Shown piece by piece: positions 28,414-54,879 of a stretch of 64,000 nucleotides of DNA; within the stretch, counting starts at the first letter, position 1, and every line of letters starts with the position of its first letter. The stretch is from Lachnospiraceae bacterium (GTDB taxonomy: Bacteria; Bacillota; Clostridia; Lachnospirales; Lachnospiraceae): positions 1 to 64,000 of the forward strand of contig JAILOK010000104.1 of assembly GCA_024690825.1 (NCBI GenBank), read 5' to 3'. The translations under genes were made by a program, and so were the position numbers. Below the pieces are notes generated by a model. The model was not told where the DNA came from. It worked only from the letters and a program-made list of their open reading frames with translations, and made no database searches.

Positions 28414-28443
28414 GTGATAATATAAATTTTGCGGAGCAATACT

Positions 28444-30084
28444 ATGTTAAATATATTGGTTGTGATTCCCGCAAGGGGAGGATCAAAGAGAATACCGAGA
28501 AAAAATGTCAGGATCATGAACGGGAAACCGCTCATACTGTACTCTATTGAAAATGCCGAGAGCCTTAAAAACGCGTTTGGCGCCGATATAGTAGTATCCA
28601 CCGATGATGAGGAGCTCATGGGGATCGTAAGAAACCACGGAGTGGAAGTCATCGAAAGAGAGGGGAAACTGGCCGGGGACAAAGTTACTTTGGATCCCGT
28701 TATATACGATGCCCTGATAAAGAAGGAAAAAAGCGCGGGAAAAAGCTATGACATCGTGATCACGATGCAGGCAACATCACCGACACTGAAAAAAGAAACA
28801 TTAAAGGATGCCCTGGAGGAATTCCAAAAGGAAGGGTATGACACAATGATAAGCTGTGTCAACAAACCCCATCTGTCATGGACGAAAAGTGACGGAAAGA
28901 TCATCAAGAACTATGAAAAACGACTGAACTCACAGGAACTCCCCTGTAATTTTCTTGAAACGGGAGCGTTTCTCATCACAAAGAGAGAGTGCGTGACGGA
29001 AAAGTCCAGGATAGGCGAAAACATAACGGTATACGAGACTTCGGCTCAGGAAGCGGTTGATATCGATACAGAGGAAGACTGGATCGCAGCGGAGAGCATA
29101 TTGAAGAGAAAGAAGATCCTGCTTTTCTGTGTGGGCCAGCAGCGTCTCGGCATGGGGCATATCTACAGATGTCTGACCATAGCCTACAAACTGATCGGAC
29201 ATGAGATACTCTTTGTAACCGATTCCGAAAGTACAATGGGTATAGAGAAACTGAAGGAATCCCATTTTGCCATGAAGGTTGTGTCCGACAGGAAGGAATA
29301 CGAAAAGGTGCTGGAGGAATACGCGCCCGATGTCGTGATCAATGATGTGCTGGACACCGACGAAGAACTGGTAAAGCTTGAAAGAGAGCACACATCAAGG
29401 ATAGTGAACTTTGAGGACATGGGTCCCGGAGCATGGCTTGCCGATGCCGTGATCAACGCGCTTTATGAAAACAGAAAGAACAAGCCCCAGAATGTATATG
29501 AGGGATCGGATTATTTCTTTATAAGAGACGAATTTCTCGAAGAAAAACCCAAAGATTTTTCAGATGAGTGCAGAAACATAATGATAATGTTCGGCGGAGC
29601 GGATCCGTCGGATCTGACGGGAAAGCTTTATAATATCTGCAAAACGCTTCATTCGGAAATGAAGGATGTGGAATTTCATTTTCTCACAGGTTTTGCCTAT
29701 GAAAACAAGGATAATATACAGACTGACCCGGAGAACAATATATTCGTGCATCATGATGCGAAAAGGGTCAGTGCCTACATGAAACAGGCAGATCTCTGCA
29801 TCACATCCCAGGGCAGGACGGTCTTTGAACTTGCGTCAATGGGTGTTCCGGCCGTGGTGCTGGCTCAGAATGAACGTGAAGCCGAGCATGTATTTGCAGG
29901 TATGGGAAACGGTTTTATAAACCTCGGCATCGGTTCAAAAACAGATGACATCACGATAATCAAAACGATCATGTACCTGGCAGATATGCCGCGGGTACGT
30001 AAGGAAATGAGAAACCTGCAGCTTTCAAGGAAATTTGAAAAGGGTCAGGAAAGAGTGATCAAGATCATACTCAATGAGGAATAA
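28444..30084 (+). CDS. Fused CMP-acylneuraminate cytidylyltransferase (NeuA/SpsF-like) + PseG/SpsG-like hydrolase
   Basis: N-term MLNILVVIPARGGSKRIPRKNVRIMNGKPLILYSIENA; C-term FCVGQQRLGMGHIYRCLTIAYKL...IMIMFGGADPSDLT...LCITSQGRTVFELASMGVPAVVLAQNERE. RBS GGAG upstream of ATG 28444 (ORF track starts 28429). Confidence 0.9.
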   Translation: MLNILVVIPARGGSKRIPRKNVRIMNGKPLILYSIENAESLKNAFGADIVVSTDDEELMGIVRNHGVEVIEREGKLAGDKVTLDPVIYDALIKKEKSAGKSYDIVITMQATSPTLKKETLKDALEEFQKEGYDTMISCVNKPHLSWTKSDGKIIKNYEKRLNSQELPCNFLETGAFLITKRECVTEKSRIGENITVYETSAQEAVDIDTEEDWIAAESILKRKKILLFCVGQQRLGMGHIYRCLTIAYKLIGHEILFVTDSESTMGIEKLKESHFAMKVVSDRKEYEKVLEEYAPDVVINDVLDTDEELVKLEREHTSRIVNFEDMGPGAWLADAVINALYENRKNKPQNVYEGSDYFFIRDEFLEEKPKDFSDECRNIMIMFGGADPSDLTGKLYNICKTLHSEMKDVEFHFLTGFAYENKDNIQTDPENNIFVHHDAKRVSAYMKQADLCITSQGRTVFELASMGVPAVVLAQNEREAEHVFAGMGNGFINLGIGSKTDDITIIKTIMYLADMPRVRKEMRNLQLSRKFEKGQERVIKIILNEE

Positions 30085-42372: not shown

Positions 42373-43683
42373 ATGAAGGTTGCGGTGGCGGGAACAGGAT
42401 ATGTCGGACTGGTGACGGGTGTATGTCTGGCGGAAAACGGACATGATGTTACCTGTGTTGATGTGGATGAAAACAAGATAAAGATGATGCAGGAGGGTAA
42501 ATCTCCGATATATGAGCCCGGGCTGCAGGAGCTTATGACGAAAAATATCGGCAGGCTTACCTTTACCACGGACCATGCCAAAGCATACCGGGATGCTGAG
42601 ATCATTTTCATAGGTGTCGGCACTCCCGAAAAAAAGGACGGATCAGCAAACTTAAGCTATGTGTTTGCTGCGGCTGAAGAGATAGCGCAGAACGCCGAAA
42701 AAGAGTGTGTTGTGGTCATCAAATCTACGGTCCCCATCGGCACGAATGACAGGGTTGAAAATGCGATAAATGAAAAAAGTGCGGGACGGGTAAAGATCCA
42801 TGTGGCCTCAAATCCGGAATTTCTTTCACAGGGTACGGCGGTCAGGGATACTCTTCATGCTTCAAGGATCGTAATAGGTGTTGAGGATGATTTTTCGAGG
42901 GAAAAACTCCTGTCTCTTTATAAGGGGCTTGATGCGCCGGTGGTTGTGACTAACAGGCGTTCGGCGGAAATGATAAAATATGCCTCAAATGATTTCCTGG
43001 CGCTGAAGATATCCTATATCAATGAGATAGCAAATCTGTGCGAAGCGATCGGGGCCGATATAAAGGATGTTGCAAAGGGAATGAGTTATGACGCGCGTAT
43101 AGGCGACAAATTCCTGAATGCCGGCATCGGCTACGGCGGTTCATGTTTTCCGAAAGATACGAAAGCCTTAAGCTGGCTTGCGACATTTAACGATCATGAG
43201 ATAAAGACCGTAAAGGCTGCAATAGAGGTAAATGAAAACCAGAAGCTCCTGCCGGTAAAAAAGGCCGCGAGATATTTTAATGATATGCGGGGTATTACAG
43301 CGGCCGTGCTGGGTCTGACCTTTAAGCCCGGCACCGATGACTTGAGGGAGGCGCCCTCGCTTGTGACGGTACCGATACTTATCGATGACGGCGTGAAGAT
43401 AAGAGCCTGGGATCCGGTGGGTGTTTCAAATTTCAGGAAACAGGTGCCTGAAGGCGTGGAATACTTTGATACAGTTGAGGAGACGCTTAAGGGCGCGGAT
43501 GTATGTTTCATTTTTACGGAGTGGCCGGAGGTTTTAAATCTTGACCCGTCGTTGTTTGTTTCTTTGATGAAAAACCCTGTCGTGATAGATGGCAGGAACT
43601 GTTTTGATGCAGAAAAGATCGCTTCCGTTAAAGGCATGGTATATGACAGCATCGGACGGGCGGTCATTGATACGAGATCATGA
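42373..43683 (+). CDS. ugd: UDP-glucose 6-dehydrogenase
   Basis: MKVAVAGTGYVGLVTGVCLAENGHDVTCVDVDENKI...NPEFLSQGTAVRDTLHASRIVIG...GIGYGGSCFPKDTKAL. Confidence 0.93.
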   Translation: MKVAVAGTGYVGLVTGVCLAENGHDVTCVDVDENKIKMMQEGKSPIYEPGLQELMTKNIGRLTFTTDHAKAYRDAEIIFIGVGTPEKKDGSANLSYVFAAAEEIAQNAEKECVVVIKSTVPIGTNDRVENAINEKSAGRVKIHVASNPEFLSQGTAVRDTLHASRIVIGVEDDFSREKLLSLYKGLDAPVVVTNRRSAEMIKYASNDFLALKISYINEIANLCEAIGADIKDVAKGMSYDARIGDKFLNAGIGYGGSCFPKDTKALSWLATFNDHEIKTVKAAIEVNENQKLLPVKKAARYFNDMRGITAAVLGLTFKPGTDDLREAPSLVTVPILIDDGVKIRAWDPVGVSNFRKQVPEGVEYFDTVEETLKGADVCFIFTEWPEVLNLDPSLFVSLMKNPVVIDGRNCFDAEKIASVKGMVYDSIGRAVIDTRS

Positions 43684-46373
43684 ATAATCGACGATTTCAA
43701 GTTATATCTGTTTTTGCCGCGGGGCTGATCACAGCCGTGATCTTCCTGTCTGTCCTGGCTGTAAAGGGCATATGGCCGTTTGGGGCAAGTACCATAGATT
43801 ATTATGATATGGGACAGACAAATGCGCCGCTTTACTACCATCTCTGGGATTTTCTCCATTTCAAAGGTCCGCTTTTTTATACCCCTTTTCTTGACGGAGG
43901 ACAGAATCTTTCCATGGCATCCGCCATACAGTGGAATATTTCTGTATACAATCTCTTTTATTATTTGATACCGAGGAGCCTGTGCTTCCGGTCTCTTTCT
44001 CTTTTTACGGGACTAAGACTTGTTTTTATGTCCGTGAACATGTGTATTTTTCTGGTGAGTCAGCCGGGACGGTTCAGAGCGGATCGTTTTTCGGAAACAG
44101 ACGGGTCTGAAAGAAACATCAGGGATGTCAAAACGAGCGCAGCGGTCTGTATTGCCATGAGTGTCTGTTATGGTTTATGCGGTTACACCCTTACACACTA
44201 TACCATTACAACATATCTTGATACTGCCGCGCTTTTCCCGCTTCTGATGCTCACACTGTTCCGCGTTCTGCAAAACAGCGATGATATTTGTATCGGGAAA
44301 AAGATAAAAATAAAAAGAACAGCGGTCTATTCGCTGTGTCTCGGATATATGACCGCACTAAGTTATTATCTGGGTTTCATGGATCTGATTTTCATACTTC
44401 TCGTTTCAGGGACCTGCATCTTTCTGATCGTCCCGAAGGAGGAAAGGGGGACGGTGTCGGCAAAACTTGTAACGGGAACCGTCCTTGGACTTTTGATATC
44501 TGCTTTTATCCTTCTTCCCGCGGCTCTTCAGATGACGACATCATCAAGATTTAATTCAAATATGGAAGGGTCGGTTTTCGGAACGCTGAAGGACATCCTG
44601 TGGGCTATCGGAGCGGATATGTATTATATCAAGGGCTTTGCAGTCTTTGGCTGTTTCTTTGCCGCTGCTTTCATTATCACGGGACTTTTCCGGTTCAGGA
44701 AGGAAAAAAGGATAAATCTTTTTCTGTGCCTTTTCTGTTTTTATCCGTGCGCTCTCATCATCTTTGAATCCATAAACCTGCTGTGGCATATGGGCACTTA
44801 TTATCATTATCCGATAAGATGCGGATATCTCATTCCGTTTGTCCTGCTTGCGGCGGGTGCGTACTTTGCCGAAAAGCAGGCGGACAGGATACAGGCCGGC
44901 AGTCAGTATTTCCCGGTTACCGGTTATATTATCTTTGCCGCACTGGCTGTTATTCTTGCCGTTGCGGTCTTGAGAATATATACCGGACACGGGGTATGGG
45001 AGATACATGATCTGTTTAAGGTGTATCTGATCTTTGCCGCTGTCATGTTTTGCATATATTTTGTCTTTATAATCTTTAAAAGACCGGACGGGGCGTTATT
45101 CTTTCTTGCCGCAGAACTGTTTGTCGGTGCATTTATCGGATACGGAATGCCGAATTTTACGGATGTCTTTTCATCCGATCCGGAACAGTCCGGAGCATAT
45201 GTAGAGACAGCGCTTGACCTTAAGGATGATTTGGGGATAGAGGAAAGCACCCTCGATCGTATTAAAAATCCGGATACCATGCTCAATACGAATTACGGGA
45301 TGGTGATCCGCCGCGCAACAGTCGGGGGATGGGCAAATACGGCAAGAAGAGATCATCTTGATGCCACAATGGCGTTTGGATACAACGCGCATTTCATGCG
45401 GATCCTTGACAGCGGAGGAACCGTCTTTTCGGATGCCCTGCTGCATGTGACACAGACCCTTACCTGCAGGGACGAACTGTATACAAAAAAAGCGTACGAA
45501 AAAATAAAGCAGTCGGGGGATTATTCGCTGTTTGACAATAAATACATACTGCCGTCCGTGATGTTCACAAAAGAAGATTTTGCGGGAGCATTTAAGCCCG
45601 GAACGGATGCCGCAAAAATAACAAATGCGTACTATGCGGCCCTGTATGAAGGCTGCACCGGATCAGGACCGCGAAACGAAGAGATAGCGGAATATCACGA
45701 TGAAATGAAGCTGCATGTTGACGGTATTAAAGCTCTGTATCTGCATGGAGGAAGCGGAGAAGAGATACGGGTGAACGGAAGAAGCATCCCGGTTCCGACC
45801 ATAGGTCATCCGGACAATAAGGAATATCCGGCTCCCTTCAATTCCAATCTGCTTTATCTTGGAATATATGAGAATGAGGATGTAAAGATCGAGGGTGTTA
45901 AGGAAGAGGCAAAGATATTGTCGGTCGATCTTTTAATGCTCGAGGAACTCTGCAGTATCTGCTCCGGCAAGATACCCGTGGAGTTTTCAAACGGATCATA
46001 CAGCTTTACCGTGACGGCAGACAGCGCAAAGCAGGCTCTTGTGCCGCTGACCTTCGACAGGGGCTTTAAGGCATATGTGAACGGAAAAAAGACCCGGGTA
46101 AGAAATGTCGACGAAATGTTTATGGGAATACCGCTTGAAGAAGGAACGAACGAAGTAAGACTGGAATTTAAGCCCTTTGGCTTTACTGCCGGAATTATCG
46201 TCAGTACCGCAGGACTGATCCTTGCACTGTTCGTACTTCCGTTTTTTGATGAAAAACGGTTCGGAAACGCGTGCCGGATCCTTACGGGAGCGGTATTTGC
46301 GGCTGCACTGACGGTTTTCTATATTATCCCGATAGGTGCATTTATCGTGCACCAGATATTAAAGAGGATATGA
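43680..46373 (+). CDS. YfhO-family membrane protein (GT-C-like)
   Basis: 897 aa, many TM; DYYDMGQTNAPLYYHLWDFLHFKGPLFYTPFLDGGQNLSMASAIQWNISVYNLFYYLIPR; C-term QALVPLTFDRGFKAYVNGKKTRVRNVDEMFMGIPLEEGTNEVRLEF. Confidence 0.9.
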   Translation: MNNRRFQVISVFAAGLITAVIFLSVLAVKGIWPFGASTIDYYDMGQTNAPLYYHLWDFLHFKGPLFYTPFLDGGQNLSMASAIQWNISVYNLFYYLIPRSLCFRSLSLFTGLRLVFMSVNMCIFLVSQPGRFRADRFSETDGSERNIRDVKTSAAVCIAMSVCYGLCGYTLTHYTITTYLDTAALFPLLMLTLFRVLQNSDDICIGKKIKIKRTAVYSLCLGYMTALSYYLGFMDLIFILLVSGTCIFLIVPKEERGTVSAKLVTGTVLGLLISAFILLPAALQMTTSSRFNSNMEGSVFGTLKDILWAIGADMYYIKGFAVFGCFFAAAFIITGLFRFRKEKRINLFLCLFCFYPCALIIFESINLLWHMGTYYHYPIRCGYLIPFVLLAAGAYFAEKQADRIQAGSQYFPVTGYIIFAALAVILAVAVLRIYTGHGVWEIHDLFKVYLIFAAVMFCIYFVFIIFKRPDGALFFLAAELFVGAFIGYGMPNFTDVFSSDPEQSGAYVETALDLKDDLGIEESTLDRIKNPDTMLNTNYGMVIRRATVGGWANTARRDHLDATMAFGYNAHFMRILDSGGTVFSDALLHVTQTLTCRDELYTKKAYEKIKQSGDYSLFDNKYILPSVMFTKEDFAGAFKPGTDAAKITNAYYAALYEGCTGSGPRNEEIAEYHDEMKLHVDGIKALYLHGGSGEEIRVNGRSIPVPTIGHPDNKEYPAPFNSNLLYLGIYENEDVKIEGVKEEAKILSVDLLMLEELCSICSGKIPVEFSNGSYSFTVTADSAKQALVPLTFDRGFKAYVNGKKTRVRNVDEMFMGIPLEEGTNEVRLEFKPFGFTAGIIVSTAGLILALFVLPFFDEKRFGNACRILTGAVFAAALTVFYIIPIGAFIVHQILKRI

Positions 46374-46390: not shown

Positions 46391-46419
46391 TTGAAATAAA
46401 CCACAAAATATGGTATAAT
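46391..46419 (+). promoter_or_regulatory. Candidate internal promoter of the CDP-sugar module
   Basis: TTGAAA (46391-46396), 17-bp spacer, TG-G-TATAAT (46414-46419), then TTTGGAG and ATG 46441. Confidence 0.65.
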
Positions 46420-46440
46420 TTCTTTTTGGAGTGTGGATTT

Positions 46441-47502
46441 ATGGGATTGGAATTTTATAAAGGAAAAAGAGTACTTATAACAGGCCATACAGGCTTTAAG
46501 GGAACCTGGCTTTCAAAGATACTTTTGGATGCCGGAGCAAAGGTGAGCGGACTGTCGCTTGACAGTGATACGGTGCCGTCACTTTATGAACTGACCGGGA
46601 TAGGAAAACATATCGAAGAGAGCATATTCGATATCAGGGATTACGGAGCGACTTTAAGCATCGTTAGAACCCGAAAGCCCGATATAGTCTTTCATATGGC
46701 CGCACAGCCTATCGTCAGGATCTCCTATGAGGAACCGGTAAGGACTTTTCAGACAAATGTCATGGGAACGGTAAACATTCTCGATGCGGTAAGAAGAACT
46801 GACAGTGTTCGCTCCTTTGTGAATGTGACCACTGACAAGGTTTACCTGAATGAGGATAAGGGAACTCCCTTTACTGAGGATATGCCGCTTGACGGGTATG
46901 ACCCTTATTCAAACAGCAAATCCTGCTCGGAGCTGGTCACCCATTCCTACAGAAATTCATTTTTTAACGGAAGGACATGTTCGATATCTACCGTAAGAGC
47001 CGGAAATGTGATCGGAGGGGGAGATTTTTCAAAGGACAGGATAATCCCCGACTGCGTCAGGGCGGCCCTTAACGGTGAAGAGATAATCGTCAGAAATCCG
47101 GGATCCATCAGGCCCTTCCAGCATGTACTGGAGCCTCTGTTTGCATATCTTCTGATAGCGGAAAAGCAGTTCGGACACAAGGAACTGGAAGGGGCATACA
47201 ACGTAGGGCCGAAGCTTTCCGACTGTATAACCACCGGAGAGATCACCGAAATGTTTGTGAAAAACTGGGGGCATGATCTCAAGTGGATAGACAGATCTGA
47301 CAAGGGACCCCATGAGGCGAACTTCCTCAGACTTGACTGCACAAAGGTTCAGGAAACTTTCGGATGGAAACCTGTATGGAACATCAAAAGAGCGGTTACG
47401 GAAACCGTTAACTGGACAAAGGTTTACGCAAACGGCGGAGATGTGGTTGCGGAAATGGAGCGGGAAATAAACGAATTTATAAAGGATCGGGAAAATGTTT
47501 GA
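46441..47502 (+). CDS. rfbG: CDP-glucose 4,6-dehydratase
   Basis: FYKGKRVLITGHTGFKGTWLSKILLDAGAKVSGLSL...VFHMAAQPIVRISYEEPVRTFQTNVMGTVNILDAVR. Confidence 0.93.
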   Translation: MGLEFYKGKRVLITGHTGFKGTWLSKILLDAGAKVSGLSLDSDTVPSLYELTGIGKHIEESIFDIRDYGATLSIVRTRKPDIVFHMAAQPIVRISYEEPVRTFQTNVMGTVNILDAVRRTDSVRSFVNVTTDKVYLNEDKGTPFTEDMPLDGYDPYSNSKSCSELVTHSYRNSFFNGRTCSISTVRAGNVIGGGDFSKDRIIPDCVRAALNGEEIIVRNPGSIRPFQHVLEPLFAYLLIAEKQFGHKELEGAYNVGPKLSDCITTGEITEMFVKNWGHDLKWIDRSDKGPHEANFLRLDCTKVQETFGWKPVWNIKRAVTETVNWTKVYANGGDVVAEMEREINEFIKDRENV

Positions 47503-48835
47503 ACAGATGAATGAAAATGAGGCCAGGGAAAAGATCCTTGATCTGGTGGCCGAATACGCAAGGAAATACAAATGCACGAAGGAGCCGTTCAAAGAAGGGG
47601 ACAGGATACCGTACGCGGCAAGGGTCTACGATGAGAAGGAAATGGTAAATCTTGTGGACAGCGCGCTGGAGTTCTGGCTCACGGCCGGCAGATATACCGA
47701 TGAATTTGAAAAAAGATTTGCGGATTATCTCGGGATCAGATATGTTTCAGTGGTCAATTCCGGATCGTCGGCAAATCTTTGCGCATTTATGGCTCTGACA
47801 TCTCCGCTTCTGGGAGAGCGGAGAGTTAAAAGAGGCGATGAGGTGATAACCGTCGCGGCCGGTTTTCCCACAACCGTGGCTCCCATACTTCAGTACGGCG
47901 CAGTGCCCGTATTTTTGGATGTGACGATACCCGGATACAATATCGATACGGATCTTCTTGAAGAGGCTGTAAGCAGCAGGACCAAAGCCGTAATGATAGC
48001 GCATACGCTGGGCAATCCCTTCGATCTAAAAAAGGTAAAGGATTTCTGTGACCGTCACGGACTGTGGCTTGTTGAGGATAACTGCGATGCTTTGGGATCG
48101 GAATATACAATGGACGGAAAAACATACCTTACCGGTACTGTGGGAGATATCGGCACCAGCAGCTTTTATCCTCCTCATCATATGACCATGGGCGAGGGAG
48201 GAGCTGTTTATACTAATGATCCGACACTCCACAGGATCATAAGATCCATGAGAGACTGGGGAAGGGACTGCATGTGCCCTCCGGGAACGGATAATTTCTG
48301 CGGACACAGATATGACGGACAATACGGTACCCTGCCGAAGGGATATGATCACAAATATGTATATTCGCATTTAGGTTACAACCTTAAGGCAACCGATATG
48401 CAGACAGCCGTCGGGGTTGCGCAGCTGGAAAAATTCCCGTCCTTCGTAAAAAGAAGAAGGGAGAATTTTAACAGGATCTATGAAGGTTTGAAGGATGTCT
48501 CGGACAGGCTCATCCTGCCGGAGGCCACGGAAAATTCAAATCCGTCATGGTTTGGCTTCCTGATGACCGTTAGAGACGGTATTTCAAGGGAAAAGGTTGT
48601 GCGTTACACAGAGGATAAAGGAGTTCAGACGAGAATGCTCTTTTCCGGCAACCTTATCTGCCACCCCTGTTTTGACGAGTACCGTGAGGATAAAAGCGCG
48701 TACAGGGTAATATCGGATCTTAAAAACACAGATACCATCATGAACAGTTCCTTCTGGATCGGCACCTATCCCGGAATGGATGAAGACAGGATAGATTATA
48801 TGGTAAAGACCATAAAAGAGGCTCTTACAGTATGA
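47495..48835 (+). CDS. rfbH: RfbH/DdhC-like CDP-6-deoxyhexulose 3-dehydrase (PLP, DegT fold)
   Basis: IPYAARVYDEKEMVNLVDSALEFWLTAGRYTDEFEKRFADYLGIRYVSVVNSGSSANLCAF...SFYPPHHMTMGEGGAV: His (PPHHMTMGEGG) replaces the PLP Lys, as in E1/RfbH enzymes. Confidence 0.93.
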   Translation: MFEQMNENEAREKILDLVAEYARKYKCTKEPFKEGDRIPYAARVYDEKEMVNLVDSALEFWLTAGRYTDEFEKRFADYLGIRYVSVVNSGSSANLCAFMALTSPLLGERRVKRGDEVITVAAGFPTTVAPILQYGAVPVFLDVTIPGYNIDTDLLEEAVSSRTKAVMIAHTLGNPFDLKKVKDFCDRHGLWLVEDNCDALGSEYTMDGKTYLTGTVGDIGTSSFYPPHHMTMGEGGAVYTNDPTLHRIIRSMRDWGRDCMCPPGTDNFCGHRYDGQYGTLPKGYDHKYVYSHLGYNLKATDMQTAVGVAQLEKFPSFVKRRRENFNRIYEGLKDVSDRLILPEATENSNPSWFGFLMTVRDGISREKVVRYTEDKGVQTRMLFSGNLICHPCFDEYREDKSAYRVISDLKNTDTIMNSSFWIGTYPGMDEDRIDYMVKTIKEALTV

Positions 48836-50442
48836 AGGATGTCAAACTCCTTGATTGCACACTGCGTGACGGCGGATTTGTAAACGACTGGAATTTCGGT
48901 CACGGCAATATCATAAATCTCCTTGAAAGATCGGTGTCTGCCGGCATCGATTATATTGAGGTGGGATTTATCGATTCCAAGGTGGAGTTTAATAAAGACA
49001 GATCCATCACTCCCGATACGGATGGCATGAACAGGATATTTGAGGGTGTCGAAAAGGAATCCTCAAAGCTTATCGGCATGATCGATTACGGCACCGTTCC
49101 CTTGGAGAATGTCTGCGATGCAAAGGAGTGTATTCTTGACGGGATCAGGGTGATGATCAAAAAAAAGACAAGAAAAGAGGCTGTGGAGTTTTGCCGCAGG
49201 TTAAAGGCAAAAGGTTATCTTGTGTTCGCACAGCCGGTATCTATCACGGGTTACAGCGATGAGGAAATGAGGGAGCTTACAAAGGATGTAAATGACTCCG
49301 GTCTTTTCGCTATGTCTATTGTCGATACCTACGGACTTTTAGACCGGTCATCGCTTCTTCATTATTTCAATATCATGAACGAAGGCCTGGAGAAACAGGT
49401 ACATATCGGATACCACGCGCATAATAATTTCCAGCTGGCATATTCAAATTCCATTTCGCTGATAGAGGAAACAGGAGAAGAAAGGCCTCTTCTTATAGAC
49501 GGGTCGGCCTTTGGCATGGGCAAGAGCGCGGGAAACTGTCCGTTAGAGCTTCTTACGATGTATGCAAATACCCATCTTGGTAAAAATTATGATACAAATC
49601 AGATACTGGAGATGATAGATACCTGCATCAGGAACATATATGCGGTAAGTCCCTGGGGTTATCAGATGCAGTATTATCTGTGCGCTTCAAACGACTGTCA
49701 TCCCAAATACAGCCAGTATCTGATGAAGAAGAAAACCCTTTCCGTAAGGTCCATAAACGAAATACTCGGAATGATAGAGCCGAAGGAAAGGCTGGCGTAC
49801 AATGAAGAATATATCGAGGGACTGTATCTTGAATATCAGAAAAATGACATAAATGACAGTGCGGCAAGAGACAGGTTATCCGGGGAACTGTCAGACAAAA
49901 AAGTTCTCATAGTCGGTCCCGGAAAATCTCTGATAAAGAAGAGAAAGGAAATAGATACATACATCAAAACCAAGACCCCGGTCATAATGACGATCAACAG
50001 CGATTTCGAAGGAATCAGGTCAGAGTATCTCTTTCTTTCAAACTCAAAGAGATATATGCAGCTTTCATCTTCGCTTGAAAACTTACGAAAAAACGGGATG
50101 AAAGTGATCGCCACATCGAATGTGACGAGTGCAAAAGGCGATTTTGATGATGTGATAGATTACAGTTCACTGATCGACGAGGAGTGCTCCATCCCCGACA
50201 ATTCCCTGCCGATGCTTTTGAGGCTGCTTTCCGAGCTTGGCGTAAAAAAGATTGCGCTGGCAGGCTTTGACGGATATTCGAGCGAAGCCAGAGTCAATTA
50301 TTACAACGAGGATATGGAGTATGATTTTGCGCACAATTATGCTCTGGAACTTAACGAATACACTGCGAAGGTGATAAAGGATCTGAAGGATAAAGGGACA
50401 GAGATCACCTTTGTAACGGAGTCAGAGTATGAGCAGAATTAA
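48832..50442 (+). CDS. HMGL/DRE-TIM-type aldolase fused to a C-terminal Rossmann-like domain
   Basis: VKLLDCTLRDGGFVNDWNFG (DRE-TIM start), GYHAHNNFQLAYSNS, IDGSAFGMGKSAGNCPLELL; from about aa 350, KKVLIVGPGKSLIKKRKEIDTYI..., a separate domain. Confidence 0.88.
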   Translation: MKDVKLLDCTLRDGGFVNDWNFGHGNIINLLERSVSAGIDYIEVGFIDSKVEFNKDRSITPDTDGMNRIFEGVEKESSKLIGMIDYGTVPLENVCDAKECILDGIRVMIKKKTRKEAVEFCRRLKAKGYLVFAQPVSITGYSDEEMRELTKDVNDSGLFAMSIVDTYGLLDRSSLLHYFNIMNEGLEKQVHIGYHAHNNFQLAYSNSISLIEETGEERPLLIDGSAFGMGKSAGNCPLELLTMYANTHLGKNYDTNQILEMIDTCIRNIYAVSPWGYQMQYYLCASNDCHPKYSQYLMKKKTLSVRSINEILGMIEPKERLAYNEEYIEGLYLEYQKNDINDSAARDRLSGELSDKKVLIVGPGKSLIKKRKEIDTYIKTKTPVIMTINSDFEGIRSEYLFLSNSKRYMQLSSSLENLRKNGMKVIATSNVTSAKGDFDDVIDYSSLIDEECSIPDNSLPMLLRLLSELGVKKIALAGFDGYSSEARVNYYNEDMEYDFAHNYALELNEYTAKVIKDLKDKGTEITFVTESEYEQN

Positions 50443-51076
50443 GCTTATCATCTTTGATCTGGACGGAACTCTTTTTAACACAAAGCCCGGGATCGTAGAG
50501 GCAATAAAAAGGACCTCGCTCGATGAAGGCTTTCCGCGCGTCTCCGACAAAGTTTATGAAACCTTCATAGGTCCTCCGATCGAGCAGAGCTTTTCAAGAG
50601 TATTCGGATCAAAAAAAGAGGAAGCCGTAAGACAGGGCGTACTCTTCAGACAGTACTACGGAGAAGACGAATATCTGTTTCAGACAGAAGAATATGACGG
50701 AATGAGACAGACATTGGAGGCGCTTAAAAGACGCGGCATGAAGCTTGCTCTTGCAACCTATAAAAAGGAATGGATGGCGCTGAAGATCTGCAGGCATTTC
50801 GGATACGATGCCTTCCTTGATTCCATTCACGGATCCGATCCCGACGGGAAGCTTACAAAGGGAGAGATAATCAATATCTGCATGGAAGAGTGCGGATGTA
50901 CCTGTGATGAAACCCTGATGGTAGGGGATACGGACTTTGACGCAAAGGGAGCAAGGGATGCCGGCACGGGCTTTGTGGGTGTGACTTACGGTTTCGGTTT
51001 TACACAAAAGTGTGATATTACGGCGTACGAGGGAGCTGTGGCAATAGACTCGCCAAAGGAGCTGTTGGAAATATGA
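50429..51076 (+). CDS. HAD hydrolase (phosphoglycolate phosphatase-like)
   Basis: IIFDLDGTLFNTKPGIVEAI...LALATYKKEW...MVGDTDFDAKGARDAGTGFVGVTYGFG. Confidence 0.9.
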   Translation: MSRIKLIIFDLDGTLFNTKPGIVEAIKRTSLDEGFPRVSDKVYETFIGPPIEQSFSRVFGSKKEEAVRQGVLFRQYYGEDEYLFQTEEYDGMRQTLEALKRRGMKLALATYKKEWMALKICRHFGYDAFLDSIHGSDPDGKLTKGEIINICMEECGCTCDETLMVGDTDFDAKGARDAGTGFVGVTYGFGFTQKCDITAYEGAVAIDSPKELLEI

Positions 51077-52881
51077 GGATAAAGGTTTCGGATTATATAG
51101 CCGGTTTTCTTGTGTCAAAAGGAATAGAGGATGTCTTTACGGTAACCGGCGGGGGCGCCATGCATCTCAACGATTCCATAGGGCATCACCCGAAGCTTCA
51201 CAGTATATACAATCATCATGAACAGGCTTCGGCCATAGCAGCGGAAGCCTACGCAAGGTATTCGGGGAAGATAGCGGCTGTGTGTGTAACCTCCGGTCCA
51301 GGCGGGACAAATGCCATTACAGGTGTGCTGGGCGGATATCTTGATTCTGTACCGATGTTTGTTATTTCAGGACAGGTAAAAAGAGCGACAACCGTCGGAT
51401 CGACCGATCTGCCTTTAAGACAGCTCGGAGACCAGGAATATGACATAGTAAAAAGTGTTTCGAATATGACCAAATATGCCGTGATGGTGACGGATCCCGA
51501 AGAGATCGAATATCATCTTGAAAAGGCGTATTTCCTTGCGACAAACGGAAGGAAGGGACCGGTATGGCTTGACATACCGCTTGATGTTCAGGGCGCGTAT
51601 GTGGAGACAGATGATCTGTACGGCTATGACGGAAGGGATGATGATGAGATCGAAAATCCCGTATATAACAGATCCTATACCGAAATTATCCTTAAAAAGA
51701 TAAATGAAGCAAAACGGCCATTGATACTTGCCGGAGAAGGAATCTATTTTGGAAATGCACACAAAGAATTCCTTAAATGTATCGAGGCTCTGAAGATACC
51801 GGTAGTGACGGCATGGAATGCAAATGACCTCATACCCGATGACCATCCCCTATTTGCGGGACGTCCGGGCAGCGTCGGAACAAGAGGAGGAAATTTTGCG
51901 GTTCAGTGCGCCGATCTTCTGCTGGTGCTCGGCTGCCGCATGAATATCAGGATCATCAGCTACAATGAGCATAATTTCGCAAAAAATGCCTATAAGATCA
52001 TGGTCGACATAGACGAAAACGAATTGAGAAAACCCACCGTAAATGTGGATATGCCGATACATGCCGATGTAAAGGATGTGCTCTGTGATCTTTTGTCACA
52101 TGCCGGCGAAAAGAAAGCTGATCACGAAAAATGGACTGCGTGGTGCAGGGATATAAATAACAGATATCCGGCCTGCAGGCAGGATTATCTTGAAAAAGAC
52201 ATGCCGCTGAATCCCTATGCTTTTATTAAGAGGCTCTCTTTTTATCTGTCAGAGGGAGATGCCGTTATCTGTGGAAACGGGGCGGCCTGTGTCCAGACCT
52301 TCCAGGCTTTTGAGATGAAACAGGACCAGAGAGTGTTTACCAATTCCGGATGCGCAGCCATGGGTTACGGCTTTCCGGCAGCTGTCGGTGTTTCAGTCTT
52401 CCGGAAAGACAGCAGGACTGTCTGCATAGACGGAGACGGAAGCTTCATGATGAATCTTCAGGAACTCCAGACTGCGGTTTACAACAGACTGGATCTTAAG
52501 ATCTTTATTTTGAACAATAATGGATATCATTCCATCAGGCAGACTCAGACAAATCTGTTTAAGCCGCCGCTTGTCGGAGTGTGCGCCGAAAACGGGATCA
52601 GTTTTCCTGATTTTGAAAAACTGGCAGGAGGATTCGGGATCCCTTATTACAGAATAGATTCGCTCAAAAGGACGGAACTCGGGTTTTTTGATGAGATATT
52701 CGAGGCAGAAGGTCCGGTCATCGTTGAAGTGATCGTAGATGAAAAACAGAATTTTGAGCCAAAGCTTTCGAGCAGGATGAATGAAGAAGGAAAGATGGAA
52801 TCACCCGATATCGACGATATGTTTCCGTTTCTTTCAAGGGAGGAATACGAGGCAGTACATACAGAGGCAATGAATCTTTAG
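51073..52881 (+). CDS. Thiamine pyrophosphate-dependent enzyme (acetolactate-synthase fold; YerE-like candidate)
   Basis: VSDYIAGFLVSKGIEDVFTVTGGGAMHLNDSIG...HHEQASAIAAEAYARYSGKIAAVCVTSGPGGTNAITGVLGGY...IDGDGSFMMNLQELQTAVYNRLDLKIFILNNNGY (TPP GDG...NN). Confidence 0.92.
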   Translation: MRIKVSDYIAGFLVSKGIEDVFTVTGGGAMHLNDSIGHHPKLHSIYNHHEQASAIAAEAYARYSGKIAAVCVTSGPGGTNAITGVLGGYLDSVPMFVISGQVKRATTVGSTDLPLRQLGDQEYDIVKSVSNMTKYAVMVTDPEEIEYHLEKAYFLATNGRKGPVWLDIPLDVQGAYVETDDLYGYDGRDDDEIENPVYNRSYTEIILKKINEAKRPLILAGEGIYFGNAHKEFLKCIEALKIPVVTAWNANDLIPDDHPLFAGRPGSVGTRGGNFAVQCADLLLVLGCRMNIRIISYNEHNFAKNAYKIMVDIDENELRKPTVNVDMPIHADVKDVLCDLLSHAGEKKADHEKWTAWCRDINNRYPACRQDYLEKDMPLNPYAFIKRLSFYLSEGDAVICGNGAACVQTFQAFEMKQDQRVFTNSGCAAMGYGFPAAVGVSVFRKDSRTVCIDGDGSFMMNLQELQTAVYNRLDLKIFILNNNGYHSIRQTQTNLFKPPLVGVCAENGISFPDFEKLAGGFGIPYYRIDSLKRTELGFFDEIFEAEGPVIVEVIVDEKQNFEPKLSSRMNEEGKMESPDIDDMFPFLSREEYEAVHTEAMNL

Positions 52882-52885
52882 ACAG

Positions 52886-53905
52886 ATGGAAAAGATAGAT
52901 ATACTTTATCAGTTCAATGAAAAATATGCTCCGTATGCAGGGACCTCGATCACATCGGTTTTCAGGAATAACAAGCATATTGATGAGATAAGGATCTTTG
53001 TATTGGGAGAGGAACTGTCGGAGGATTCAAAGGAAAAACTCTGCAGCCTGGCTTCAGAGTATGAAAGACAGATCATTTTTGTTGATACGGACAGTCTGAT
53101 CGGCATGATGAAGGAAATGGGAATGCCCTCATACAGAGGATCCTATGCGGCAAACTTAAGGCTTTTTGCCGGACTTATTCCGCAGATAGATTCAAAAAGG
53201 CTTTTGTATCTTGATGCCGATACCATAGTGGACGGACAGCTTGATGAACTTACCCGCCTTGACATGAGGGGTCTTCCCGTTGCCATGATACTGGATTCCC
53301 TTGTAAGAAAGCATAAGGAAAGGCTTGGATTTACGGAAGATGAGCCCTATTTTAATTCCGGAGTGATGCTTTTTGATATGGAGGAATGGCGGAAAAGGAA
53401 CTGTTCCGAAAGAATAGCGGATCATGTAAAGAATAAACGGGCCTGGTATCCGTCTCCGGATCAGGATCTGATAAATGTTGTACTTAGGGGAGAAATATTA
53501 AAGCTTTCCCCAAAATATAATATGCAGCCGGTCCTGCTTGCTTTTAACACGGCAGATTACATGAAGACTTTTGGTCCTTCAGGTTACTATACATTCGGGG
53601 AACTGTGTGAGGCATTAAAAGGGCCTGTGATATATCATTTTTTCAGGTTCGTGGGAGAGTTTCCCTGGCATGAGGGAAATGTGCATCCCGACAATGATCT
53701 GTTTGACAGATACCTGCTGCAGTCGCCGTGGAAGGAATACAAAAAAAAGAAGGCAGAGACGGGACCTGTGTTGAAGATCGAAAAGATTTTATACAGGATC
53801 CTGCCGAAAAGGGTTTTTATCATATTGTTCCGTATAGCCTATGAAAGCTTCATAAAAAAGGCAAATGCGGACTCACTGAAAGAGAAAGTGAACAAGGTGA
53901 TGTAA
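52886..53905 (+). CDS. Glycosyltransferase family 8
   Basis: DILYQFNEKYAPYAGTSITSVFRNN...LLYLDADTIVDGQLDELTRLD...YFNSGVMLFDMEEWR. Confidence 0.92.
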   Translation: MEKIDILYQFNEKYAPYAGTSITSVFRNNKHIDEIRIFVLGEELSEDSKEKLCSLASEYERQIIFVDTDSLIGMMKEMGMPSYRGSYAANLRLFAGLIPQIDSKRLLYLDADTIVDGQLDELTRLDMRGLPVAMILDSLVRKHKERLGFTEDEPYFNSGVMLFDMEEWRKRNCSERIADHVKNKRAWYPSPDQDLINVVLRGEILKLSPKYNMQPVLLAFNTADYMKTFGPSGYYTFGELCEALKGPVIYHFFRFVGEFPWHEGNVHPDNDLFDRYLLQSPWKEYKKKKAETGPVLKIEKILYRILPKRVFIILFRIAYESFIKKANADSLKEKVNKVM

Positions 53906-54879
53906 TGAAAAAGATAAGTATTCTGATCCCCTGCTATAACGAAGTTGAAAATGTCGGACCGATATCCGAAGCGATCGTTAAGATAATGGAGAGCGAGCTT
54001 TCAGGGTATGATTATGAACTGGTCTTTATCGATAACTGTTCGGAGGACGGTACCAGGGAAAAACTTGAAGAGATATGCGCAGTAAATAAAAAGATCAAGG
54101 CGATCCTGAATGTAACTAACTTCGGTCAGTTCAATTCTCCGTTTTACGGAATGTGCCAGACAACCGGAGACTGTACGATATCCATGTGCTGTGATTTTCA
54201 GGATCCGCCGGAACTTATACCAAAATTTGTGGCTGAATGGGAGAAAGGCTATAAAATAGTCAGCGCCATCAAGACGGGGAGCAAAGAGAACGGCATCGTT
54301 TATTTTCTGAGAAGCTGCTATTACAAGATGATAAGAAACATGTCCTCCGTGAAGATGATAGAGCACTTTACGGGGACCGGGCTTTATGACAGGTCTTTTA
54401 TCAATCTGATAAGCCAGCTCGACGACCCGATACCTTTTCTTCGCGGTATAGTTGCCGAGTACAATTTCAAGAGAAAAGATATTCCCTATACCCAGAATAA
54501 GAGAAGGGCAGGAAAAACCCACAACAATTTTTATCTGCTCTATGACGCGGCGATGCTTTCGATCACTTCCTATACCAAGGTGGGCCTGCGTCTTGCGACC
54601 TGGGCCGGATTTGCGATAGGCGCCGTAAGCTTCATAGTTGCTCTTGTTTTCCTGATACTGAAGCTTACTCACTGGGACAGCTTTCAGGCCGGCTATGCGC
54701 CCATGATCATAGGCGTGTTCCTGCTTGGAGCAATACAGCTATTCTTCATAGGATTTCTGGGTGAATACATACTGAATATAAATACCCGTATCATGCACAG
54801 GCCTCTTGTCGTTGAGGAGAGGAGGATCAATTTTGAAGAAGGAAAAGATACGGCCGAGGGAGAAGCAAAGAAGACATGA
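53905..54879 (+). CDS. GT2 polyprenyl-phosphate glycosyltransferase (GtrB/DPM1-like, two C-terminal TM)
   Basis: KKISILIPCYNEVENVGPISEAI...DNCSEDGT...CCDFQDPPELIPKFVAEWEKGYKIV...C-terminal TM pair. Confidence 0.9.
   Translation: MKKISILIPCYNEVENVGPISEAIVKIMESELSGYDYELVFIDNCSEDGTREKLEEICAVNKKIKAILNVTNFGQFNSPFYGMCQTTGDCTISMCCDFQDPPELIPKFVAEWEKGYKIVSAIKTGSKENGIVYFLRSCYYKMIRNMSSVKMIEHFTGTGLYDRSFINLISQLDDPIPFLRGIVAEYNFKRKDIPYTQNKRRAGKTHNNFYLLYDAAMLSITSYTKVGLRLATWAGFAIGAVSFIVALVFLILKLTHWDSFQAGYAPMIIGVFLLGAIQLFFIGFLGEYILNINTRIMHRPLVVEERRINFEEGKDTAEGEAKKT

Follow-up and report, generated by a model that had tools for sequence, protein, structure and literature searches.

Five overlapping genes in the 64,000-nucleotide stretch of Lachnospiraceae bacterium DNA analysed here (the window; contig JAILOK010000104.1, positions 1 to 64,000) are predicted, with high probability, to make a 3,6-dideoxyhexose that is CDP-activated and bears a long carbon branch at C4. 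The five co-directional open reading frames (ORFs), which overlap by 8, 4, 14 and 4 nucleotides, encode in order RfbG, RfbH, a DRE-TIM aldolase fusion, a HAD phosphatase and a thiamin diphosphate (ThDP)-dependent enzyme. An earlier note on this DNA had proposed these identities, together with a pathway in which the aldolase, optionally with the HAD enzyme, builds a longer 2-oxo acid for grafting by the ThDP enzyme. The identities are borne out by profile scores and ORF coordinates. The pathway is supported, on genomic grounds, by these identities and by conservation, phylogeny and neighbourhood statistics, with unrelated enzymes substituting for the aldolase elsewhere.

In the proposed pathway, RfbF, whose genes lie elsewhere in the genome, would supply CDP-glucose, and RfbG and RfbH would convert it to CDP-4-keto-3,6-dideoxyglucose. 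The DRE-TIM aldolase would condense pyruvate with an aldehyde, probably a phosphorylated one, and the HAD enzyme would strip the phosphate to leave a 2-oxo-3-deoxy sugar acid. The ThDP enzyme would decarboxylate this acid, and the resulting acyl anion would be added to the ketone at C4 of CDP-4-keto-3,6-dideoxyglucose. The product would be a tertiary alcohol whose C4-acyl branch is deoxy at C2' and hydroxylated at C3', as would be expected of a relative of caryophyllose or erwiniose. A GtrB/PgfS-like family 2 glycosyltransferase (GT2) probably loads the sugar onto a lipid carrier for decoration of a surface polysaccharide. Each catalytic step, the aldehyde acceptor, the length of the branch and what becomes of the ketone so formed are predictions from gene content.

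Identity of the ThDP enzyme

All three TPP domains are present in the ThDP enzyme, as are a catalytic-type Glu50 and a GDG motif at residue 454. It scores 362 bits against TIGR00118, for which the cut-off for biosynthetic acetohydroxyacid synthases (AHAS) is 538. Its best match in the PDB is JanthE (8rph; 374 bits, versus 258 for Escherichia coli IlvB), with which it shares a C-terminal tail that is absent in IlvB. In a maximum-likelihood tree of 68 rows, the four AHAS rows make up a separate clade (100/100), and on the far side of a 100/100 branch the window enzyme is placed with JanthE and with enzymes encoded in CDP-sugar loci. The clustering with genuine acetolactate synthases that the earlier note had seen as damaging to its pathway is therefore not found.

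Annotation tools would label this protein AHAS-like on its TIGR00118 score, and an acetolactate synthase or housekeeping decarboxylase would leave the operon making an ordinary 3,6-dideoxyhexose. This is very improbable, because the score lies below all AHAS cut-offs, the AHAS sequences stand apart in the tree, separate AHAS-like genes are present in the same genome (contigs C138 and C22), and the enzyme is tied to RfbH at the level of whole genomes. Within our Bacillota sample, RfbH is present in nine of the 10 other genomes with the ThDP enzyme, versus 13 of 387 without it (Fisher 8e-12). Judged by score and tree position, the protein is a YerE-like enzyme and not an acetolactate synthase. 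A search of plasmid sequences for YerE-type enzymes returned AHAS-like matches only.

Interchangeable makers of the 2-oxo acid

With the ThDP enzyme as seed and without the aldolase as a query, a survey of about 990 genomes of three phyla gave 42 loci. At least one Rfb gene is present in 35 of the 42, and a 2-oxo-acid maker likewise in 35, lying within 3 kb of the ThDP gene in 32 of these 35. The makers are HpcH/HpaI aldolases (11 loci), DRE-TIM aldolases (nine), NeuB (eight), MhpE/MhpF types (four), DAHP synthases (two) and HpcH together with NeuB (one). Family models confirmed representative HpcH_HpaI and NeuB makers; DAHP synthase scored above its cut-offs and the MhpE/MhpF types above equivalog cut-offs.

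As a control we took 15 RfbH-selected loci of that genome sample, on genomes or contigs other than those of the ThDP hits, and scored only the listed maker families. None of the 15 has a maker (P 8e-9 versus 35/42), and two hold a distant ThDP relative (34–36% identity). Since the reference makers had been picked from ThDP loci, a hold-out comparison was restricted to makers known from the window or from the first survey, which covered its own phylum. In Bacteroidota and Spirochaetota it still gave makers at 18 of 31 loci versus 0 of 15 controls (P 8e-5), five spirochaete loci being near-copies and hence not independent.

Within the ThDP tree the type of maker switches, and its position by the ThDP gene is kept. 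Two loci that fall within aldolase-bearing clades (L161 and L162) retain RfbF-RfbG-RfbH, a short-chain dehydrogenase/reductase (SDR), the ThDP enzyme (60–61% identical to that of the window), the HAD enzyme and the GT2, and have an HpcH/HpaI aldolase instead of the DRE-TIM aldolase. At four others (L221, L222, L223 and L236) the maker is a 4-hydroxy-2-oxoacid (HOA) aldolase paired with an acylating acetaldehyde dehydrogenase, a pair that makes 4-hydroxy-2-oxopentanoate; those of L221, L222 and L236 pass equivalog cut-offs, and the nearest tree rows of JanthE are L223 and L236. Because unrelated 2-oxo-acid makers occupy the place of the aldolase in similar operons, the idea that these enzymes build a donor is independently supported.

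Partners of the aldolase

A scan of GTDB genomes seeded with the aldolase found at least 572 relatives, and the best 80 loci were analysed, with a ThDP enzyme counted if it lay within 10 kb. Such an enzyme occurs at 58 of the 80, usually adjacent to the aldolase gene. Among these 58, RfbF, RfbG and/or RfbH are found at 44, an SDR at 45 (usually directly after the ThDP gene) and the GT2 at 40, in most cases with 65–82% identity. The aldolase and ThDP genes thus do not usually occur without CDP-sugar genes; a consistent absence of CDP-sugar genes is what the earlier note had held would refute its pathway. The hosts include Lachnospiraceae, Oscillospiraceae, Treponema, Fibrobacter, Bacteroidales, Selenomonas and Methanomassiliicoccaceae.

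A CMP-transferase of the KdsB or PseF/NeuA type is present at 11 of the 80 loci, and both partners together at none (Fisher 7e-8). The KdsB-like protein of Robinsoniella passes a Kdo-cytidylyltransferase subfamily cut-off. Several changes of partner are seen in the aldolase tree, for example between L083 (KdsB) and its neighbour L087 (ThDP). A HAD enzyme of the same type is a neighbour at 36 of the 58 ThDP loci and nine of the 11 CMP-transferase loci.

These two surveys bear on a simpler scheme of the yersiniose type, in which the ThDP enzyme adds a two-carbon branch from pyruvate and the aldolase–HAD pair serves another sugar, its presence in the operon being due to chance. YerE does use pyruvate or 2-oxobutyrate (PMC12247030), distant ThDP relatives stand in RfbH loci without a maker (L224, L268 and L274), as pyruvate users should, and the aldolase–HAD pair occurs without a ThDP enzyme at 11 of the 80 loci. 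However, makers of five enzyme types pair with the ThDP gene at 35 of 42 loci and stay beside it as the type swaps in the tree, and aldolase loci have a ThDP enzyme or a CMP-transferase but never both; we therefore consider this scheme unlikely.

The aldolase and HAD enzyme might instead make an acceptor or a second precursor, such as a free ulosonic acid or a cyclitol, that is attached separately, the ThDP enzyme drawing on a 2-oxo acid of central metabolism. The pair does occur beside KdsB- and PseF-like CMP-transferases elsewhere, and an AroB-like cyclase is present at 11 of the 42 ThDP-seeded loci. Against this, none of the 58 ThDP loci was found to have a CMP-transferase together with the pair, which would leave a free ulosonic acid without local activation, and replacement by MhpE/MhpF types fits the preference of ErwE for 4-hydroxy-2-oxo acids. 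A separate precursor is quite unlikely, and grafting of the aldolase product onto the 4-keto sugar remains our preferred explanation.

A broader proposal, to which we give an even chance, is a modular route. One ThDP enzyme would graft the decarboxylated forms of ulosonic-type acids that are supplied by five or more interchangeable makers. The DRE-TIM aldolase with HAD would be a KdsA/NeuB-like maker, its product going either to CMP activation or onto a CDP-4-keto sugar. In the subgroup of the window enzyme the branch may stay a ketone, for no local SDR is present in the window or at its nearest relatives (L072, L073, L076 and L102).

Three sets of loci found in the surveys are of separate interest. 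Aldolases, mostly with HAD, stand by KdsB- or PseF-like CMP-transferases without a ThDP enzyme at L083, L120, L126, L127, L132, L135, L139, L140 and L145–L147, including loci of the Gram-positives Robinsoniella and Paenibacillus; these could be a KdsA/NeuB-free route to CMP-ulosonic acids. Two Methanomassiliicoccaceae archaea (L123 and L148) carry aldolase–HAD with CDP-sugar genes, one of them with the ThDP enzyme, which suggests transfer of the module to archaea. An AroB-related 'sugar phosphate phospholyase' (TIGR04425) and an SDR lie near the ThDP enzyme, often at the place of HAD, at L163, L210–L212, L217, L225, L228–L232 and L081.

Aldolase fusion, HAD phosphatase and precursor enzymes

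The N-terminal domain of the aldolase is HMGL-like (PF00682, 71.7 bits), and in sequence and predicted structure its barrel resembles the putative aldolase 3dxi and HOA aldolases. Arg12, Asp13, His195 and His197 show 95% or higher conservation across 80 sequences and align with the Arg-Asp and His-x-His metal/enolate site of DmpG. A model of the last 199 residues (pLDDT 93) matches the folds of MptE-type HPPK and SteA (Foldseek probability 1.00, E about 1e-3 to 2e-4, TM about 0.5). Every full-length relative has this domain joined to its aldolase, with invariant Gly, Asn, Asp and Thr positions, and the HpcH replacement aldolases are without it. The HAD enzyme is phosphoglycolate-phosphatase-like and below every equivalog cut-off. 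From these features and the neighbourhoods, we infer that the aldolase makes the 2-oxo acid donor and that the HAD enzyme acts on the aldol product.

Two other assignments were discarded. Membership of the 4-hydroxy-2-oxovalerate aldolases (MhpE/DmpG) was rejected on the TIGR03217 score and a missing His base, and a guess by eye that the C-terminal domain is a GT42-type sialyltransferase gave way to the Foldseek matches. At another locus (L050:6466-9666), a 1066-residue DRE-TIM aldolase fusion with two repeated glycosyltransferase-like segments adjoins RfbG, RfbH and a distant ThDP enzyme.

RfbG and RfbH both pass their curated cut-offs (Table 1). In RfbH, His replaces the lysine that binds pyridoxal phosphate (motif PPHHMTMGEGG). 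Its cysteines are spaced C259-X1-C261-X7-C269, and the nearest upstream cysteine, C197, gives X61 in place of the X57 of the iron-sulphur motif C-X57-C-X1-C-X7-C.

Several observations weigh against the proposed pathway. RfbF is absent within the window (two copies are at other sites of the genome), no electron donor for RfbH is present in the window, and a search of the same genome, run without a positive control, found no match to a DdhD-like reductase. The SDR that relatives have in the position of YerF has no close homologue in the window, the best match there being 22% identical. The earlier note's statement that no YerF-type reductase could be recognized is upheld; a 35% homologue of the relatives' SDR lies elsewhere in the genome (C60). 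Of the 58 loci with aldolase and ThDP enzyme, 14 lack Rfb genes on the fragment read and 22 lack HAD. The aldolase is under every aldolase equivalog cut-off (TIGR03217, 70.9 versus 286 bits), its Phe16, which is Tyr in most relatives, aligns with His21 of DmpG, the HOA-aldolase base, and the scheme gives its MptE-like domain no role. Finally, a ThDP paralogue in the same genome (41% identity; L006) has neither Rfb genes nor a maker nearby. This second YerE-like enzyme (L006:8074-9855; C88:93073-94842) also has no HAD neighbour and adjoins a nucleotidyltransferase-like gene.

Comparison with known systems

Grafting of long branches has precedent in ErwE of the erwiniose pathway and in the caryophyllose enzyme, and use of longer 2-oxo acids is already documented for ErwE and MMAR_2332 (PMC12247030). 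ErwE of Pectobacterium atrosepticum, compared by description, is a YerE-like ThDP enzyme that joins a hydroxylated 2-oxo acid to CDP-4-keto-3,6-dideoxyglucose and prefers 4-hydroxy-2-oxo acids, including 4-hydroxy-2-oxopentanoate (PMC12247030). In contrast, the donor maker in the window is a DRE-TIM aldolase fusion with HAD, and the nearest relatives belong to the Lachnospiraceae and not to the proteobacteria. Caryophyllose (MMAR_2332, Mycobacterium marinum), also compared by description, is a 3,6-dideoxyhexose with a polyhydroxyalkyl branch at C4, namely 1,3,4,5-tetrahydroxyhexyl (PMC5706390). Its pattern of deoxy C2' and hydroxylated C3' is that of a decarboxylated pyruvate aldol, as the proposed pathway predicts.

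JanthE of Janthinobacterium sp. HH01, the closest solved relative and likewise on the non-AHAS side of the tree, couples 2-oxo acids to ketones and accepts 4-hydroxy-2-oxovalerate (PMC12188165). It differs in having CDG for GDG, and its two nearest tree rows adjoin MhpE/MhpF types, not a DRE-TIM aldolase. YerE of Yersinia pseudotuberculosis (yersiniose A) shares the RfbG/RfbH-type precursor and C4 branching by a ThDP enzyme, but it uses pyruvate, for which an aldolase is unneeded, and the YerF-type reductase is missing from the window operon.

The KdnA/KdnB and KdsA/KdsC pairs condense a three-carbon unit with a sugar phosphate, and a HAD enzyme then removes the phosphate. The two-step logic is the same here, except that the condensing enzyme is a DRE-TIM aldolase, probably using pyruvate and not phosphoenolpyruvate, and that the product would be decarboxylated onto another sugar.

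More than 200 YerE-like enzymes have been predicted (PMC12247030). According to a review, most predicted YerE-like enzymes are without a known sugar, and C4-branched higher sugars are known chiefly from a few glycans. In many gut and environmental microbes this grafting enzyme is encoded next to keto-acid makers that are unrelated and can replace one another. In the open literature, key subscription papers being outside our scope, we found no description of donor-maker cassettes, of the swap of aldolase–HAD to CMP-transferases, or of the module in Bacillota or archaea. The modularity of the donor cassettes, the exchange of partner for CMP-transferases and the occurrence in Bacillota, spirochaetes and archaea go beyond the descriptions that we found. 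Gene neighbourhoods assign each YerE-like enzyme a predicted and directly testable donor: in the case of JanthE, reported to have no known physiological substrate, the MhpE/MhpF-type neighbours of its nearest relatives predict 4-hydroxy-2-oxopentanoate. C4-branched sugars would thereby be placed on Lachnospiraceae, Treponema, Fibrobacter, Bacteroidales and relatives of methanogens, and the YerE-like enzymes of such loci would be new catalysts for chiral tertiary alcohols.

Organization of the operon and neighbouring genes

The promoter-like sequence claimed ahead of the operon was located (Table 1); such matches are overall no more frequent than in shuffled sequence. Two boundaries differ from those given earlier. 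RfbG most likely starts at the ATG behind GGAG and not at the upstream TTG, and the operon does not end with the ThDP gene, since the GT8 and GT2 genes continue nearly without a gap. The GT8 gene is kept in the same operon of the nearest relatives L072, L073, L076 and L102 (64–65% identity). The GT2 is the probable undecaprenyl-phosphate transferase of the branched sugar. The YfhO-type protein encoded upstream, a similar version of which (938 residues) lies within the operon of L072, is a candidate for adding the lipid-linked sugar on the outside.

Table 1. Position of the operon and adjoining features in the window
Feature	Position	Strand	Evidence
YfhO-type polytopic membrane protein, upstream of promoter-like site	43680..46373	+	PF09586, 182.8 bits
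Promoter-like site TTGAAA-N17-TATAAT, TG before -10	46391..46419	+	11/12 consensus positions; candidate only
rfbG-like CDP-glucose 4,6-dehydratase	46441..47502 (ORF extendable to TTG 46426)	+	TIGR02622, 420.8 bits (cut-off 278)
rfbH-like CDP-4-keto-6-deoxyglucose 3-dehydrase (pyridoxamine phosphate/FeS, non-aminating)	47495..48835	+	NF011936, 714 bits (cut-off 423)
DRE-TIM (HMGL/HOA-aldolase-like) aldolase, residues 1 to ~335, with MptE/thiamin-pyrophosphokinase-like domain, residues ~338–536	48832..50442	+	PF00682; structure matches
HAD phosphatase, phosphoglycolate-phosphatase-like	50429..51076	+	PF13419, 121 bits
YerE-like ThDP enzyme, JanthE relative	51073..52881	+	Three TPP domains; PDB match; tree
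GT8 glycosyltransferase	52886..53905	+	PF01501
PgfS/ArnC/GtrB-like GT2	53905..54879	+	NF047588, 176 bits (below cut-off)

Two further loci were noted. On a 3164-bp contig of the same genome (C136, L060), RfbF lies beside ORFs that resemble a transketolase N-subunit and a glycosyltransferase, possibly for another ThDP-modified CDP-sugar. At 28429-30084 of the window, a 551-residue protein has a CTP_transf_3 domain and, at its C-terminus, a weak match to glycosyltransferase-28; it may be a fusion of CMP-transferase and glycosyltransferase-like parts.

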